Shown here piece by piece: positions 22,199 through 31,442 of a stretch of DNA of 64,000 nt; position 1 is the stretch's first letter, and every line of letters begins with the position of its first letter. The DNA is from Paenarthrobacter sp. DKR-5 (lineage in GTDB: Bacteria > Actinomycetota > Actinomycetes > Actinomycetales > Micrococcaceae): positions 1 to 64,000 of the forward strand of contig NZ_JAHBOI010000008.1 in NCBI RefSeq assembly GCF_018531425.1. Reading direction: 5' to 3'. The translations under genes and the position numbers were made by a program. The notes beneath the pieces are model-generated. The model was not told the DNA's origin, made no database searches, and saw only the letters and a list, made by a program, of their open reading frames with translations.

Positions 22199-22693
22199 TC
22201 AGTCTCCCTTGGGCTGGCCGGCCACGAGCTTCGCCGCTTCCTGGATCTTGACGATCGCGGCCATCTCCTGGTCGAGGTTCTGCCTCAGCAGCTGCGCGAC
22301 GGCCGGCTGTCCAAGGGCATCGGCGCTCGTGATGAGCCCCTCGTACACCGCCGTTTCGTAGTGTTCCGTCTCAAGCGCACCGGAGAGGACGACGACGTCG
22401 GCCAGCCCGGCGTCGGTCTTGCGCAGCGTGGCCTTTCCCTCTTTGGCCAGGCCCTTCGTGGTCGGCGACGGCGACTCGTGCACCGGCTGGCCCAGCAGGG
22501 AGAAGCACTGCTCGAGGTTCGCGATCTGCTGCCGCGTCTCCCCCGCGTGCTCGCGGAAAAGCGTCTTCAGGTCCGCCCGCTGCGCCTCTGACTCCAGATC
22601 CTCCAGCATGTGCAGCGAGTCCTTCTCCATCGTCATCGCCGATCCCAGCTTGAAAATGAAGAGCTGTTCGGGTGTTTCCAGATGTTCAAACAT
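22199..22693 (-). CDS. Ferritin-like DUF892/YciE-type protein
   Basis: The ATG at 22693 follows GGAGGAA; the protein is 164 residues. It is a four-helix bundle with Glu and His spaced for a di-metal site: MEKDSLHMLEDLE, REHAGETRQQI, GALETEHYETAVYEGL and NLDQEMAA. The family (YciE/YciF) is linked with stress responses and may bind iron. It lies downstream of a decarboxylase gene that has lost its catalytic core, and the two are probably co-transcribed. Confidence 0.88.
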   Translation of the reverse strand: MFEHLETPEQLFIFKLGSAMTMEKDSLHMLEDLESEAQRADLKTLFREHAGETRQQIANLEQCFSLLGQPVHESPSPTTKGLAKEGKATLRKTDAGLADVVVLSGALETEHYETAVYEGLITSADALGQPAVAQLLRQNLDQEMAAIVKIQEAAKLVAGQPKGD

Positions 22694-22747
22694 TGTTCCT
22701 CCTGTTGGTCGGGCCCTGCCGGGACCGGGTCTATTCCTGCACGACAT

Positions 22748-25219: not shown

Positions 25220-25399
25220 GCTGGGCACTCCTTTGCGGCAATCATTCCCGATACCGATGCCGGAAGCCTACGTCCTGCTTCCCTGCCGTGGATACCCCAC
25301 CGCCCCGGCCATGTGGGCGGCCCGCCGGACAGCCCGCCCGGGCGACGACTGCCCTTGTTTGCCCTTGTTTTTCACCACCAGATGCTCTAGGAGTTGACC

Positions 25400-26536
25400 A
25401 TGCCGGCCATGCTGCGGTCACTGGAAACGGCGGTTCCCGCCACCACTCTCACCCAGAACGAGGTGCGGGACGTCTTCGCCGCGCAGCCCGGGCTGTCCCG
25501 GCTGGGGGCACGCCTCGTGAAGACGTGCTTCGACGGGTCCGGGATCGACACCCGCTACACGGCTGTGGAGGAAATGAGCCTGGCCCGGCACAGCGACAAC
25601 CCTGTCTTCTTCGATGCCGGGTCGGGACTGCTGCTGAGCCCGAGCACCAAGGTCCGGAACGAGCTCTTTGCCACGGAGGCGACAAAGCTCTTCGTCGACG
25701 CCGCGGCGCGGGCGCTGGCCGCCTGCGAGGGGGTGGAGGCTGCGGACGTGACGCACGTCGTCACCGTTTCCTGCACAGGGTTCTTCAACCCTGGGCCGGA
25801 CTACCGGATCGTGCGGGAACTGAACCTGGACCCGGCCGTGGAGCGGTACCACCTCGGCTTCATGGGCTGTTACGCCGCTTTCCCCGCCCTCCGGGCGGCG
25901 AAAGCCTTCTGCGATGCGGATCCGAACGCCGTCGTCCTAGTGGTGGCAGCGGAGCTGTGCTCCCTGCACGTGCGCAGCTCCAACAACCCTGACACCATCA
26001 TGGGCTCCTCGTTGTTCGGCGACGGCGCCGGAGCCGCCGTGGTCACGGCGCGGCAGCTCCCGCCCGGCGCTCCGGCCATCCGGCTGGACGCCTTCGCCAC
26101 CACCCTCACGCCCGTCGGCGAGGATTCCATGGCGTGGAACATCGGCGACGAAGGCTTCGAGATGGTGCTGGGCACCTACGTGCCGCACATCATCGAGGAG
26201 CACATCACCGGCGCCCTGGAACCGCTGCTGGCGGGCAGCCCGGCCTTCGCTTCCGGCAGGCACAGCGACATCCCGCACTGGGCCATCCATCCGGGCGGCC
26301 GCAGCATCCTGGACCGGATAGAAACCGTCCTCGGCCTGACGGCGGAGCAGCTCCTCCCGGCCCGCGACACCCTCCGCCGGTACGGGAACATGAGCAGCGC
26401 CACCGTGCTGTTTGTCCTCAAGCACATCCTCGAACAGGACCCCGGCCGCGAGGACGAACCCATTTGCGCGATGGCGTTCGGCCCCGGCCTGACCGTGGAG
26501 ACCGGCCTGTTCACCAAGATCGCCCCGGGCAGATGA
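25400..26536 (+). CDS. Type III polyketide synthase (chalcone synthase-like)
   Basis: The ATG at 25400 follows TAGGAG by 6 nt, giving 378 residues. The catalytic triad is complete: Cys125 in VVTVSCTGFFNPG, His297 in WAIHPGG and Asn330 in YGNMSSATV. The protein resembles bacterial enzymes that extend acyl starters with malonyl-CoA to make alkylresorcinols or alkylpyrones. Its stop overlaps the start of a methyltransferase, which is followed by a flavin monooxygenase, the same functional order as the srsABC phenolic-lipid genes of Streptomyces. The starter unit cannot be read from the sequence. Confidence 0.93.
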   Translation: MPAMLRSLETAVPATTLTQNEVRDVFAAQPGLSRLGARLVKTCFDGSGIDTRYTAVEEMSLARHSDNPVFFDAGSGLLLSPSTKVRNELFATEATKLFVDAAARALAACEGVEAADVTHVVTVSCTGFFNPGPDYRIVRELNLDPAVERYHLGFMGCYAAFPALRAAKAFCDADPNAVVLVVAAELCSLHVRSSNNPDTIMGSSLFGDGAGAAVVTARQLPPGAPAIRLDAFATTLTPVGEDSMAWNIGDEGFEMVLGTYVPHIIEEHITGALEPLLAGSPAFASGRHSDIPHWAIHPGGRSILDRIETVLGLTAEQLLPARDTLRRYGNMSSATVLFVLKHILEQDPGREDEPICAMAFGPGLTVETGLFTKIAPGR

Positions 26537-27228
26537 TCCTGCTCCGCAACAGAGCTCTCGACGCCGTTGAGGAGATGGACAAGCCCGATTGCGATCCCCG
26601 GCTGCTGGCGAGAACCTACGCGCAGTTCCGGCTGGTGAACCGGCCCATCGCCCGGTGGCGGACGATCTACAGGAAATGGCTCCGCCCCGCCATGGTTCCC
26701 GGCCGGCCCTGCTCGCTGCTCGACGTCGGGTGCGGCGGCGGCGACGTCGCCTTCGATCTTGTCCGCTGGGCGGCGCGCGACGGAATCGAGCTTGCCGTTA
26801 CCGCCATTGACCCGGATGAGCGCGCACTCGCCTTCTCCACCGCACACCCGCAAGCCGGGGCGGTGACGTTTCGCAGGGCCACCAGCGCGGACCTGGTGAA
26901 GGAAGCCGCCACGTTCGACTTCGTGGTCTCCAATCACGTGCTCCACCATCTGGGGGACGCGGAACTGACCGGCCTCCTCGCCGATTCAAAGCAGCTCTGC
27001 CGGCGGCTGGCGCTGCACAACGACATTGAACGCTCCCCCGCCGCCTACCTGCTCTTCTTCCTCGGCGCCCTGCCGTTCCGGGGATCCTTCATCCGGCGCG
27101 ACGGGCTGACCTCGATCCGCCGCAGCTACACGGTGCAGGAGCTGGAGCGCGCGGCCCCCGAGGGGTGGTCCGCGCGCCGCCTGGCTCCGTTCCGTACCCT
27201 GCTCGTGCACCAGCCCGCGGGGGCATGA
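26533..27228 (+). CDS. Class I SAM-dependent methyltransferase of the polyketide operon
   Basis: The protein is 231 residues and begins inside the stop of the polyketide synthase gene (ATGA at 26533-26536). SAM motif I is LLDVGCGGGDVAFDL, followed by an acidic residue at AIDPDERAL and the post-I motif FDFVVSNHVLHHL. The region after residue 165 (AAYLLFFLGALPF) is hydrophobic and may contact a lipid substrate. It probably methylates the polyketide product on oxygen or carbon. It is a different fold from SrsB of Streptomyces, so the step is analogous rather than proven homologous. Confidence 0.88.
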   Translation: MILLRNRALDAVEEMDKPDCDPRLLARTYAQFRLVNRPIARWRTIYRKWLRPAMVPGRPCSLLDVGCGGGDVAFDLVRWAARDGIELAVTAIDPDERALAFSTAHPQAGAVTFRRATSADLVKEAATFDFVVSNHVLHHLGDAELTGLLADSKQLCRRLALHNDIERSPAAYLLFFLGALPFRGSFIRRDGLTSIRRSYTVQELERAAPEGWSARRLAPFRTLLVHQPAGA

Positions 27229-27229
27229 G

Positions 27230-28372
27230 GTGCACGACGTCGTGATCGTCGGCGGCGGCCCGGTCGGCCTGTACCTGGGGATTCTGCTGCTGCAACGGGG
27301 ACTGAGCATCGCGGTGCTGGAGCAGCGGGCCACAGCGCCCGCCCACTCCAAGGCCATCGGGATCCATCCGCCTGCCCTGGAGGCACTCGACCGGGCCGAG
27401 GTGGCACGCGACCTGGTGGCCGCCGGGGTGAAAATCGACCGCGGCGTGGCCTTGAGCAACGGCAGGGAAATCGCTCGGCTGAGCTTCGACCGGCCGGGAA
27501 TGCAGCCGCCGTTCATCCTCTCCGTCCCGCAATGGCGGACCGAAGCAGTACTCGAGCGCCGCCTCCGCGCCCTGGACCCCGGCGCTCTGGTCCGAGGAGC
27601 CCGGGTGGGCCGCGTCGAGCACCGCTCAACCCACGCCGTCGTCAGCGCGGACCGCGCGGGCTCCTTGGAGAAGTTCGAGGCACGCTTTGTCATTGGTGCC
27701 GACGGCGCGCGCTCGGCGGTCCGGGCCGGCCTGGGCATCCGGGCGCCCGAGCGGGTCCACCCGGACGCCTATCTGATGGGCGACTTCGCCGACCCCGGCA
27801 CCAACCGGACCACGGCAGTCCTCCACCTCGAGGCGGCCGGCGTCGTCGAATCCTTCCCGCTGCCGGAGGGCATGCGCCGCTGGGTGGTGCGCATGCCGTC
27901 CGCTGTGATCGGCGCCGCACCGGAGGACCTCTCGGCGATCGTCCATGCCCGGACCGGCATCAGCCCGGATCCGCGCACCAGCACCATGCTGAGCTCGTTC
28001 ACCCCGCGCACCACAATTGCCCGCAACTCGGTGCAGGGCCGGACAGTTCTCATCGGCGACGCGGCCCACGAGGTGAGCCCCATCGGCGGGCAGGGAATGA
28101 ACCTCGGATGGCTCGACGCGGCAGCCCTGGCACCCCTGCTCACCGCCGCCTCGGCCCGCGGTTCGGCCGGGCCGGGCGCCGCGGACTTCCTCCGCTACGA
28201 AGCGGACCGGCGCCGCGCGGCGCTCACTGCGGCCCGGCGTGCCCACGTGAACATGCTGCTCGGGCGCCCCCTCCCGCCGGACGTGGTGAAGGCCCGCGAC
28301 GCCCTGCTGCGCTCGCTCTTCGGGGCGCCCCCGGTAGCTGCCTGGGCCACCCGCCGGTTCACCATGCAGTGA
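27230..28372 (+). CDS. FAD-dependent monooxygenase of the polyketide operon
   Basis: The protein is 380 residues; its GTG is one base after the methyltransferase stop. The dinucleotide motif is VVIVGGGPVGLYLGILLLQRG, the middle motif has FVIGADGARSAVR, and the FAD-ribose motif is LIGDAAHEVSPIGGQGMNLG, as in phenol hydroxylase/UbiH-type aromatic hydroxylases. It probably hydroxylates the resorcinol or pyrone ring, which could lead to a quinone. The stop codon is the first base triplet of an 18-bp tandem repeat. Confidence 0.9.
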   Translation: MHDVVIVGGGPVGLYLGILLLQRGLSIAVLEQRATAPAHSKAIGIHPPALEALDRAEVARDLVAAGVKIDRGVALSNGREIARLSFDRPGMQPPFILSVPQWRTEAVLERRLRALDPGALVRGARVGRVEHRSTHAVVSADRAGSLEKFEARFVIGADGARSAVRAGLGIRAPERVHPDAYLMGDFADPGTNRTTAVLHLEAAGVVESFPLPEGMRRWVVRMPSAVIGAAPEDLSAIVHARTGISPDPRTSTMLSSFTPRTTIARNSVQGRTVLIGDAAHEVSPIGGQGMNLGWLDAAALAPLLTAASARGSAGPGAADFLRYEADRRRAALTAARRAHVNMLLGRPLPPDVVKARDALLRSLFGAPPVAAWATRRFTMQ

Positions 28373-28423
28373 CCGGGCACTGGGCAGTGATCGGGCATTG
28401 CGCAATGATCGGGCATTGTGCAG
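28370..28423. repeat. Three tandem 18-bp repeats beginning at a stop codon
   Basis: The units tgaccgggcactgggcag, tgatcgggcattgcgcaa and tgatcgggcattgtgcag lie head to tail at 28370, 28388 and 28406. The first TGA is the stop of the monooxygenase gene. Copies two and three differ at only two positions. The period is 18 nt, so every unit places TGA in the same frame. It lies 75 nt before the molybdoenzyme ATG. Confidence 0.85.
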
Positions 28424-28497: not shown

Positions 28498-30963
28498 ATG
28501 GTGAGCAAGGACCGAATAGCGGAACCATGGGGCGCCCGAAGCCCTTACGGACCCGGCGACGAGTGGCCCACCCGGGTGGACAGCTACCTCGCGGACGGCA
28601 TCAGCCAGGACGAGGTCGACCGCTGGGTGCAGACGGCGTCCATCCTGCATTCCAACGGCGATGCCCTGGACATCGCGGTCAAGGACGAGCGCATCGTGGG
28701 GGTGCGCGGGCGCGCAACGGACAGGGTGAACCATGGCCGGCTCGGGGTGAAGGACCTCTACGGCTGGCAAGCGAACGCTTCCCCGGACCGCCTGACGGTC
28801 CCGCTCATCAGGGAAGGCGGCCGCCTCGTCGAAACGGACTGGGACACCGCCATGGGCCGGATCGTCGAACGAACCAAGACGCTGCTGGCGGAACAGGGCC
28901 CCAGCGCCGTCGGCTTCTACACGACCGGCCAGCTGTTCGCCGAGGAGTATTACACTCTGGGCACCCTCGCCCACGGCGGACTGGGCACCAACCATGTGGA
29001 CGGGAACACGCGGCTCTGCACGGCGACCGCGGCCGCGGCCCTCAAGGAGTCCTTCGCCTGCGACGGCCAGCCCGGCTCCTACACCGACATCGACCACGCC
29101 GACGTCATAGCTCTCTACGGTCACAATGTGGCCGAGACCCAAAGCGTGTTGTGGATGCGGATGCTGGACCGCCTCGCCGGCCCGAACCCGCCGAAGATCA
29201 TCTGCGTCGACCCGCGGCCCACCGAGGTCGCCCGCCACGCCACGGTCCACCTGGCGCCCCTGCCCGGCACCAACGTGGCCCTGATGAACGGGCTGCTGCA
29301 CGAGATCATCGCCAACGGCTGGGTGGACCACTCCTACATCGAAGCCCATGCGGTGGGCTACGAAGAGCTGGCCGAACGGGTGAAGGAGTACTCCCCCGAC
29401 GTCGTCGCCACCATCTGCGACGTACCGGCAGCACAAATCCGCGAAGCTGCTTCGATCCTCGGCCACGCCGAGCGGCTGCTCTCGACGGTCCTGCAGGGCT
29501 TCTACCAGTCCAACCAGGCAACAGCAGCAGCCGTCCAGGTCAACAACGTCAACATTATTCGAGGGATGCTCGGCAAGCCCGGCTGCGGGATCCTGCAGAT
29601 GAACGGCCAGCCGACAGCGCAAAACACGCGGGAGTGCGGCGGAGACGGGGACCTGCCCGCCTTCCGCAACTGGTCCAACGACGAACACGTGAAGGACCTG
29701 GCGCGGGTGTGGAACGTGGACCCGATGCAGATCCCGCACTACTCGCCGCCCACGCACGTCATGCAGATGATGCGCTACGCCGAAGACGGCTCGATCAGGA
29801 TGCTCTGGGTCAGCGGCACCAACCCGGCCGTGTCCCTGCCCGAACTGCGGCGGGTCCGCTCCATCCTCGAACAGGAGCGGCTCTTCCTCGTTGTCCAGGA
29901 CATCTTCCTTTCGGAGACCGCAGCGCTGGCCGACGTCGTCCTGCCGGCAGCGACATGGGGCGAAAAGACGGGAACATTCACCAACGTGGACAGGACGGTG
30001 CACCTGTCCGAGAAGGCTGTCGAGCCGCCCGGGCAGGCCCGCGCGGACCTGGACATCTTCATTGACTACGCGCAGCGGCTTGGCCTGAAGGACAAGGACG
30101 GCGGTCCGCTGATCAAGTGGCACGACGCCGAATCCGCCTTCGAGGCCTGGAAGGAATGCAGCCGGGGACGGCCGTGCGACTACACCGGCATCACCTACGA
30201 CAAGCTGCGCGGGGGCTCGGGAATCCAGTGGCCCTGCAACGAGGAGAATCCCGAGGGCACGGAGCGGCTCTACGAGGGCGGCAACTTCTGGAGCTCGCCC
30301 GAATACTGCGAGAGCTACGGCCGCGACCTCGTCACAGGGGCACCTGTGGAACCCACTGAGTACAAGGCCCTGAACCCGACGGGGAAGGCCATCCTCCGGG
30401 CTGCCGGCTACCTGCCCCCGCACGAGATGGTCAGCGAGGACTATCCCTTCATGCTGATCACCGGCCGGACGCTCTACCACTTCCACACCCGCACCAAGAC
30501 GGCCCGCGCGCCGCAGCTGCAGGCGGCCGCCCCCGAGGTGTGGGTGGAAGTCGCCGAGGACGACGCCGACGCCGCCGGCATCGCGGAAGGGGACCTTCTG
30601 CGGGTCTCGAGTCCCCGCGGATCGATCCAGGCCAAAGCGCGCATCACTGGCATCCGCACGGGCGTGGTCTTCGTGCCCTTCCATTACGGGTACTGGGACA
30701 CGGACGGCAGCCACGGACCGGACGACGCCGGGCGGGCGGCGAACGAGCTCACCATCACCGACTGGGACGCGTGCTCCAAGCAGCCCATTTTCAAGACCGC
30801 CGCCGCCCGGATCGAGCGCGTTCGTGCAGCTGACGGGCCGGCTCCGGCGCCTACCAACACGGCGTCCGCCCCGGCGTCGGCCGTCGGTTTCACAACGCAC
30901 GGCGGGGCTGATGCCGGCGCCGGGGAGGAACCGCAGGAACGGGCCACGGAGGCAACGCGATGA
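28498..30963 (+). CDS. Molybdopterin oxidoreductase, nitrate reductase-like, lacking the N-terminal 4Fe-4S cysteines
   Basis: The ATG at 28498 follows CGGAG by 7 nt; the protein is 821 residues. The bis-MGD fold is clear: DPRPTEVARHATVHLAPLPGTNVALMNGL, WVSGTNPAVSLPELRR, a WGEKTGTFTNVDRTVHLSEKAV loop and a C-terminal MopB dinucleotide domain (LITGRTLYHFHTRTKT). The likely Mo ligand is Cys174 in NTRLCTATAA, at the position used by NapA-type enzymes. At the place of the CxxCxxxC iron-sulfur motif the sequence reads TASILHSNGD (residues 46-55), with no Cys. Electron entry must therefore differ from NapA or NasA. It overlaps the next gene by 4 nt. Confidence 0.88.
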   Translation: MVSKDRIAEPWGARSPYGPGDEWPTRVDSYLADGISQDEVDRWVQTASILHSNGDALDIAVKDERIVGVRGRATDRVNHGRLGVKDLYGWQANASPDRLTVPLIREGGRLVETDWDTAMGRIVERTKTLLAEQGPSAVGFYTTGQLFAEEYYTLGTLAHGGLGTNHVDGNTRLCTATAAAALKESFACDGQPGSYTDIDHADVIALYGHNVAETQSVLWMRMLDRLAGPNPPKIICVDPRPTEVARHATVHLAPLPGTNVALMNGLLHEIIANGWVDHSYIEAHAVGYEELAERVKEYSPDVVATICDVPAAQIREAASILGHAERLLSTVLQGFYQSNQATAAAVQVNNVNIIRGMLGKPGCGILQMNGQPTAQNTRECGGDGDLPAFRNWSNDEHVKDLARVWNVDPMQIPHYSPPTHVMQMMRYAEDGSIRMLWVSGTNPAVSLPELRRVRSILEQERLFLVVQDIFLSETAALADVVLPAATWGEKTGTFTNVDRTVHLSEKAVEPPGQARADLDIFIDYAQRLGLKDKDGGPLIKWHDAESAFEAWKECSRGRPCDYTGITYDKLRGGSGIQWPCNEENPEGTERLYEGGNFWSSPEYCESYGRDLVTGAPVEPTEYKALNPTGKAILRAAGYLPPHEMVSEDYPFMLITGRTLYHFHTRTKTARAPQLQAAAPEVWVEVAEDDADAAGIAEGDLLRVSSPRGSIQAKARITGIRTGVVFVPFHYGYWDTDGSHGPDDAGRAANELTITDWDACSKQPIFKTAAARIERVRAADGPAPAPTNTASAPASAVGFTTHGGADAGAGEEPQERATEATR

Positions 30964-31442
30964 AGATCGGGCTCGCATTGAAGGAACTGCACCGGTCCGA
31001 GGAAGAGCTGGCCCACGAGCTGCTGCGGATCTCGGACCGGCACAAGGTGGACCATGAAATCTTCCACCTGGCGAAGGATCTGGCGCGCTGGTCGCAGCAG
31101 CACGTCAGGGCCATCGCGGAGATCGGCCGACGGTACGACCAGGAGCTCGATCCCGCCGCAGGCTCCGAGCCAGGAGCCGTGAAGGCCATGCTGGAGAAGA
31201 GCAGCGAACTGACCGGGCGGCGCGGGCCGGCCGCACTCCTGCTGCTGCGCGACCTCCGCGAGGTCTACACCCAGGCGGCCGGTGTCTCCGTGGACTGGGA
31301 GCTGCTGGCGCAGGCGGCCCAGGGCATCAAGCACACGGATCTGCTGGAGCTGGCGGAACGCTGCCACCCGGAGACGCTGCGGCAGATGCGCTGGGCCAAC
31401 GCCAAGCTCAAGGAGAGCGCCACCCAGATCCTGGTCAGCTGA
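30960..31442 (+). CDS. All-helical protein coupled to the molybdoenzyme
   Basis: The protein is 160 residues and starts inside the stop of the molybdoenzyme (ATGA at 30960-30963). It is predicted wholly helical, with many His, Glu and Arg (HRSEEELAHELLRISDRHKVDHEIFHLAKDLARW). The spacing of H-x-x-x-E residues could support a hemerythrin- or ferritin-like bundle, but I cannot assign a family. The tight coupling suggests a partner, chaperone or electron-transfer role for the molybdoenzyme. There is no signal peptide or membrane segment. Confidence 0.72.
   Translation: MKIGLALKELHRSEEELAHELLRISDRHKVDHEIFHLAKDLARWSQQHVRAIAEIGRRYDQELDPAAGSEPGAVKAMLEKSSELTGRRGPAALLLLRDLREVYTQAAGVSVDWELLAQAAQGIKHTDLLELAERCHPETLRQMRWANAKLKESATQILVS

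Follow-up and report, generated by a model that had tools for sequence, protein, structure and literature searches.

The window analysed in this study is a 64,000-nucleotide stretch of the Paenarthrobacter sp. DKR-5 genome (contig NZ_JAHBOI010000008.1, forward strand), and our subject is a pair of its genes, encoding a molybdenum oxidoreductase without the usual iron-sulfur (Fe-S) cysteines and a small helical partner protein (Table 1). Translation confirmed both genes at the positions given in an earlier note on this DNA (28498-30963, then 30960-31442). The enzyme's reading frame begins with an ATG at 28498 and its stop codon ends at 30963, and the two genes overlap by 4 bp as ATGA, which holds both start and stop, so that they are translationally coupled. 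The fold of the molybdopterin guanine dinucleotide (MGD) type claimed for the enzyme was borne out by Pfam, which found the catalytic domain (Molybdopterin, PF00384, 1.8e-58) and the dinucleotide-binding domain (Molydop_binding, PF01568, 5.1e-28), both above cut-off. The Fe4S4 domain remained below the Pfam threshold (15.6 bits vs 22.7), with a match that covers residues 57-85 only, past the cysteine loop. In that loop, T46-A-S-I-L-H-S-N-G-D55 stands in place of CxxCxxxC, exactly as the note had quoted; the cysteine loss it described is real, and wider than described, the fourth ligand position (83) being Gly or Asp.

A scan of a genome collection gave 586 confirmed matches, the best 80 of which (71-86% identity, nearly all Actinobacteria by record title) were aligned with the window enzyme in 81 rows, one of them mis-called (L088) and another shortened (L066). 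A wider enzyme alignment has 112 rows: two outgroups with four cluster cysteines (NasC-like L002 and Nap-type L128); nine rows in which CxxCxxxC is kept and the fourth Cys is replaced by Gly (three-Cys); 100 rows without cluster cysteines (window-type), which represent 99 genes as the same gene appears both as L079 and as L184; and one row, L123 from Gloeothece, with an undetermined cluster region. Three split or cut genes (L133, L136 and L139) were left out. Cys174, named earlier as the probable molybdenum ligand, is kept in all 109 window-type and three-Cys rows, and in 80 of the 81 rows of the smaller alignment, the exception being the mis-called open reading frame of L088. It aligns with the active-site Cys of the solved NapA and of the formate dehydrogenase of the hydrogen-dependent carbon dioxide reductase (HDCR), a residue which we take to be the molybdenum ligand in those enzymes.

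Both pterin domains and this conserved metal ligand place the enzyme, by its sequence, in the dimethyl sulfoxide (DMSO) reductase (MopB) superfamily. No signal sequence was seen by eye at its N-terminus, from which we infer a cytosolic location. The scores of all 25 NCBIfam models shown remained below their cut-offs. The highest raw score was that of Fdh-alpha (472.4 bits, cut-off 666.25), followed by NasC (436.7 bits, cut-off 1100), and the best solved relatives in the PDB include HDCR FdhF, as the best match, and NapA, aligned over residues 40-773. A variant formate dehydrogenase would account for the first place of both Fdh-alpha and FdhF, even though the score is below cut-off. However, the residue after Cys174 is Thr in the window and throughout the 109 rows, a position taken by His in the HDCR enzyme and by Met in NapA, and a His after the Cys or Sec is a defining feature of formate dehydrogenases, with a catalytic role. 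As the host also possesses two formate dehydrogenases above the NCBIfam cut-offs (one with an in-frame TGA) and an NAD-dependent one, a further formate dehydrogenase at this locus is very unlikely.

Table 1. Positions in the window of the gene pair and of the enzyme sites discussed, with the evidence for each (Mo-bisPGD, molybdenum bis(pyranopterin guanine dinucleotide); AF2, AlphaFold2; VIA, VIA-align; dN/dS, ratio of nonsynonymous to synonymous substitution rates).
Feature	Position	Strand	Evidence
Mo-bisPGD oxidoreductase, 821 residues, without Fe-S cysteines	28498..30963	+	Translation; Pfam PF00384/PF01568; 80 loci at 71-86% identity; dN/dS
Helical partner, 160 residues, predicted ferritin-like four-helix bundle, orphan family	30960..31442	+	AF2 model; VIA; adjacency; Halomonas KO116 fusion
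Former CxxCxxxC loop, S48-I-L-H51-S-N-G-D55	28639..28662	+	H51 and D55 in 100/100 window-type rows; C/C/C in 9/9 three-Cys rows
Former fourth-Cys region, G83-V84-K85-D86	28744..28755	+	D86 in 100/100 window-type rows vs G86 in 9/9 three-Cys rows; K85 in 109/109
Cys174, the predicted Mo ligand, with adjacent Thr175	29017..29022	+	CT in 109/109; aligned with NapA Cys-Met and formate dehydrogenase Cys-His

Exchange of the cluster cysteines

Four cluster cysteines were found only in the two outgroups (CCCC), and the window enzyme carries S/H/D/G at these positions. The three-Cys enzymes come from plasmid records of Deinococcus, Hymenobacter, Halomonas, Curtobacterium and Streptomyces (58-62% identity), from a remote Staphylococcus saprophyticus plasmid (L124, 43% identity), from two mycobacteria and from one member of the window's own family; those outside the Actinobacteria are known from plasmid records only. 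In the plasmid members CxxCxxxC is present, and the fourth ligand position is already Gly. When the 100 window-type and nine three-Cys rows were compared, 87 columns were fixed in both groups, of which 84 are identical and three differ (C51H, C55D and G86D, from three-Cys to window-type), all at the old cluster site; the sequences are related, and such column counts are not independent events. The invariance of His51 and Asp55 is beyond chance. Position 48 is Ser in 61, Thr in 25 and Ala in 14 window-type rows, position 83 is Gly in 65 and Asp in 35, and Lys85 is retained throughout both groups. Pro10 is nearly group-specific, being present in 96/100 window-type and 0/9 three-Cys rows. Window-type and three-Cys enzymes occur together (L180, L181) in one genome taken as Mycobacterium (G503), and a Rubrobacter-type genome (G173) holds two different enzyme-partner pairs (L143, L080).

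Trees were built with the diagnostic columns removed, using FastTree on 48 of the 112 sequences (rooted on L128 and L002) and iqtree -fast on a subset of 27 from these 48 (rooted on L128). With the four-Cys outgroups as root, the window type falls within a grade of three-Cys enzymes, and its monophyly was not rejected (approximately unbiased (AU) test, p 0.40, with 5000 replicates, which is below the program's advice). A loss in the order four, three and no cysteines is supported but not proven by these comparisons. AioA carries a [3Fe-4S] cluster, and the three-Cys state would fit such a cluster as well. IdrA, too, has [3Fe-4S] instead of [4Fe-4S], according to the accessible passages of PMC10100899, and is in this respect comparable with the three-Cys members.

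The His51/Asp55/Asp86 set may fill the cavity as a polar network, or it may have become a binding site for an ion. In the second case the former Fe-S pocket, on that side of the pterin once occupied by the cluster, would have been converted to bind a different ion, so that within one enzyme family a relay became a metal or proton-transfer site and a stress enzyme could work in oxygen; we regard this conversion as rather doubtful.

The missing cluster ligands might instead mark a decaying enzyme with residual conservation, and eight mycobacterial genomes do carry partial partner matches without the enzyme at the limit used. However, comparison with six close relatives gave nonsynonymous rates (dN) of 0.09-0.15 against synonymous rates (dS) of 0.79-1.09, a dN/dS of 0.10-0.17; the 84 identical columns hold in 109 rows; and the residues that replaced the cysteines are invariant. 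The partner adjoins the enzyme, directly behind it, in all of the 80 best-matching loci, and the 4-bp overlap is seen in 73 of the 81 rows, window included. Among sampled genomes presumed to be Mycobacterium, the enzyme was found in 89 of 396 (E <= 1e-150) and a partner match in 52 of 198; when the two lists were compared by hand, all 44 enzyme-bearing genomes common to both samples had the partner, the remaining eight partner matches being the partial ones. In the sample of the phylum, the partner is present in 28 of 396 genomes and at 30 places, counting the window, with the enzyme alongside in 26; the four without it are short or interrupted matches. The enzyme is not decaying but under strong selection, because dN/dS is low, the partner is next door in 80/80 loci and the replacement residues are invariant. 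These selection and invariance data refute decay for the window lineage, and as an explanation it is hardly credible. The notion of a distinct, conserved two-gene system, which the earlier note had put forward, is therefore upheld. That note had taken close homologues that keep the cysteines and lack the partner as the mark of decay; this combination occurred once only, in the remote S. saprophyticus enzyme, where it is no evidence of decay.

The helical partner

The AF2 model of the partner (predicted local distance difference test, pLDDT, 89.1) is a four-helix bundle with helices at residues 2-27, 32-59, 91-122 and 126-159 and a low-confidence linker helix at 73-84. The best Foldseek matches in the PDB were ferritins at E 0.016, none reaching 0.001. 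The 50 VIA-align rows shown have Z values of 15.8-17.1 and are mostly bacterioferritin/Dps relatives, the first row being an uncharacterised Xanthomonas protein; according to the tool, Z values of 13-14 are common for helical bundles, which score high easily, and those of the partner are somewhat higher. The predicted fold is thus ferritin-like, a four-helix bundle with a long crossover. Bacterioferritin and Dps share this predicted fold; unlike them, the partner does not conserve all the di-iron ligands, and no sequence similarity to them was detected. Neither Pfam nor NCBIfam gave a family match for the window copy, a Pfam scan of 31 partners had a best E of 0.0055 (IntS14_C in 7/31, taken as chance), and the partner profile searched against PDB sequences had a best E of 0.44.

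Partners were aligned in 114 rows, 112 of them distinct as two duplicate pairs remained, with L123, L145, L146 and most duplicate loci left out. Gln118 is conserved in all 114 rows, His48, Asp98 and Trp113 in 113 each, Glu14, Lys151 and Gln156 in 111 each, and His28 in 109. The H-x-x-x-E spacings pointed out previously come down to one, His11 to Glu15, which exists; the conserved acid is instead Glu14, and the conserved histidines are His28 and His48. Two roles considered for the partner were rejected. As a di-iron ferritin it would be short of ligands, since near the middle of the bundle only Glu14 and His48 are conserved, a placement reasoned from helix levels in the model. As a cluster replacement or electron carrier it would be expected neither beside three-Cys enzymes, 8/9 of which it accompanies, nor without a cofactor motif, and no CxxC, CxxCH or heme motif was seen in it by eye. 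The earlier suggestions that the partner supplies electrons and that it is tied to the missing cysteines are accordingly not sustained, the former also for want of a family match and of enough di-iron residues.

The only three-Cys enzyme without an adjoining partner is that of S. saprophyticus (L124). In Halomonas KO116 the partner is fused to the C-terminus of the enzyme in a 945-residue frame (partner hidden Markov model, E 7.6e-17). As the partner is present with eight of nine three-Cys enzymes and fused to one, these comparisons indicate that it was there before the cysteines were lost and is no stand-in for them. In the presumed Rubrobacter-like loci the enzymes are of the window type, but the majority of the partners look like those found with three-Cys enzymes.

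With respect to its role, the partner may be a subunit of the working enzyme or a private chaperone. A dedicated assembly chaperone of the TorD/NarJ/NapD kind would be in keeping with a small, all-helical, translationally coupled protein without a cofactor motif, and private chaperones do exist for such molybdoenzymes. The Halomonas fusion, on the other hand, favours a subunit, and most of the listed structure matches are to ferritin-like chains, although the absence of TorD-like folds from the VIA-align rows shown excludes nothing. We consider the chaperone a plausible but somewhat improbable role.

Two further observations concern the partner. A DUF892 protein, whose ferritin-like type is frequently associated with general stress, is encoded in the same region of the window (22202-22747, minus strand); kinship with the partner was rejected at an hhalign probability of 0.8%. 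The Hymenobacter partner (L121 7308-7766, 152 residues) is annotated as a molybdopterin oxidoreductase, a name probably carried over from fused forms.

Promoters, neighbouring genes and nitrate

The strict SigF/SigB-type motif GTTN-N15-17-GGGTA is enriched upstream of the enzyme gene. It occurred within 200 nt in 28/81 loci, whereas 200 runs on shuffled sequences averaged 0.35 and never exceeded 2, and 200-nt stretches drawn at random from these loci predicted 0.4; in 18/28 cases the motif lies 10-11 nt before the chosen start. The motif covers the GTTT-N16-GGGTA listed for a Mycobacterium smegmatis operon in the accessible part of PMC4694148, where the SigF regulon includes MSMEG_2837 (NarB) and MSMEG_2838 (conserved hypothetical) together as SigF-dependent. 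Mycobacterial loci in our sample carry the same motif. As in the window, an enzyme gene is followed by one for a hypothetical protein, there under one SigF promoter, a likeness of gene order and annotation (PMC4694148). No Fe-S analysis of the M. smegmatis pair turned up in the passages covered. The stretch just before the enzyme gene in the window (28366-28419) has three direct repeats of 18 nt, arranged head to tail with 78-83% likeness, which overlap an imperfect palindrome and are possibly a regulator site.

Among outer members, Curtobacterium and six Rubrobacter-type loci (L135, L137, L139-L142) have an HPP-type membrane gene immediately after that of the partner; in the other Rubrobacter-type loci it is missing or the sequence ends too early. 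Elsewhere it comes after the enzyme-partner fusion in Halomonas, is near in Gloeothece, is partially matched in Deinococcus and lies about 3.4 kb off in L129. Nitrite transport by HPP proteins reportedly goes back to an original description by Maeda in 2014. A review (PMC10605003) states in its accessible text that plant and cyanobacterial HPP proteins are nitrite transporters. The HPP neighbour thus hints at a nitrogen oxyanion.

A rival reading is that the enzyme is simply the NarB/NasC nitrate reductase of nitrate assimilation that its annotation implies. Most close relatives listed in plasmid records are named 'nitrate reductase', NasC is the second-best NCBIfam model, and the HPP neighbour of the outer members would fit. 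However, the NasC score is far below the cut-off, as is that of the host's own NasC-like enzyme, which served as a yardstick (688.7 vs 1100); the usual [4Fe-4S] cysteines are missing; and the host already has that enzyme and a NarG above its cut-off. In M. smegmatis, where a nitrogen study calls MSMEG2837 NarB (PMC3706326, in part), deletion of narB left nitrate assimilation and nitrate reduction unchanged, the narB transcript was undetected in the media used, NasN was the sole assimilatory enzyme and no strain used nitrate under the anaerobic conditions employed, as far as the accessible passages of PMC7816997 go. If narB is the orthologue, an assimilatory role is contradicted there. The available parts of two other papers list MSMEG_2837 expression for androstenedione, cholesterol and glycerol (PMC4881515) and name other genes in the GlnR regulon (PMC3662644). 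In Arthrobacter sp. Helios, genes of the narGHJI type go down under drought (PMC9608346). Altogether, a plain nitrate reductase is unlikely.

Other genes near the pair or in the host are recorded here for completeness. A zinc alcohol dehydrogenase-like gene, so named by annotation, recurs in 17/100 loci. In the window, genes for a type III polyketide synthase, a methyltransferase and an FAD-binding monooxygenase stand in a row at 25394-28369, and a relative of the FAD gene is near the molybdoenzyme in five other loci. FdhD is encoded on the same contig as the window. The host formate dehydrogenase L187 (C1:14500-21000) has its in-frame TGA at 2758-2760, directly before a His at the metal-ligand position; it is a probable selenocysteine enzyme, and a SelB match above cut-off lies at C1:24762-26531. 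The single HPP-family gene found in the host genome (L190, C13:8000-17000) is about 1.3 kb downstream of the NAD-dependent formate dehydrogenase, away from the molybdoenzyme.

Proposed function

Starting from the gene pair, the residue exchange and its invariance, the fusion and the enriched promoter motif, we infer the complex, cofactor, substrate and electron route as follows. The enzyme would be a cytosolic molybdenum (or tungsten) bisPGD oxidoreductase that binds its metal through Cys174 and belongs to the Nas/Nap/formate-dehydrogenase side of the superfamily, and a helical protein of ferritin-like fold would be complexed with it as an obligate subunit. The ancestors of the enzyme would have held an Fe-S cluster, of which the fourth cysteine was lost first; in the window lineage the remaining cysteines would then have been exchanged as the invariant His51/Asp55/Asp86 set arose. 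Because there is no cluster, electrons would reach the molybdenum directly, without the usual Fe-S relay. The operon would be a set of stress genes, in many Actinobacteria with promoters of the SigF/SigB type, and the chemistry would most likely be oxygen-atom transfer on a small oxyanion or an N-/S-oxide under aerobic stress, given that the third gene of the outer members is of the HPP type, with its reported nitrite transport. We hold with moderate confidence that the pair is such an aerobic, stress-linked, Fe-S-free system. Deinococcus, Hymenobacter, Rubrobacter and Geodermatophilaceae hosts are tolerant of drying or radiation, which fits a stress role, if anecdotally.

Several points weigh against this proposal. 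The strict SigF/SigB motif is absent from 53/81 upstream regions, that of the window included, and an HPP gene was found in 0/80 of the best-matching loci (Curtobacterium protein as query, E <= 1e-6). We regard MSMEG_2837/2838 as the orthologue of the window pair from gene order, annotation and promoter, by inference only, and the lack of a nitrate phenotype in the narB deletion means that nitrate may be the wrong substrate. In the trees, the window-type L131 clusters weakly with actinobacterial three-Cys enzymes, so that two cysteine losses, or a regain, are possible. The AF2 model of the enzyme, finally, is poor (pLDDT 61) and thus cannot show the former cluster site.

Compared with known systems, the enzyme shares with NarB/NasC and NapA the domain order and a Cys at the molybdenum position; unlike them, it has no cluster cysteines, a Thr after the ligand Cys, a helical partner and, in some relatives, a stress-type promoter motif. 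TorA and BisC are Mo-bisPGD reductases free of Fe-S clusters. DorA, like the window enzyme, works without an N-terminal cluster; its type has a Ser ligand, in contrast to Cys174 here, and belongs to a different branch, and AioA and IdrA have no protein ligand to the molybdenum at all, again unlike the conserved Cys174 (PMC10100899, accessible passages). Since the DorA group is a different branch, the cluster loss seen here appears to be independent of that in DorA, TorA and BisC. In the titles, abstract openings and passages covered, with subscription papers outside, the literature held no account of the cluster loss or of the partner in this family.

Enzymes of the superfamily normally conduct electrons through Fe-S clusters, which oxygen can damage. 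The enzymes compared here can be arranged in three stages, with four cysteines in the outgroups, three in the outer members and none in the window lineage; in the last step precisely three fixed residues were exchanged in a coordinated way. They would thus provide a natural series for studying how an enzyme sheds its cluster and yet stays under strong selection. They also give a warning that 'nitrate reductase' annotations in Actinobacteria may include a different enzyme, and the stress-type regulation together with the near-obligate partner offers a handle on the function of the protein pair.

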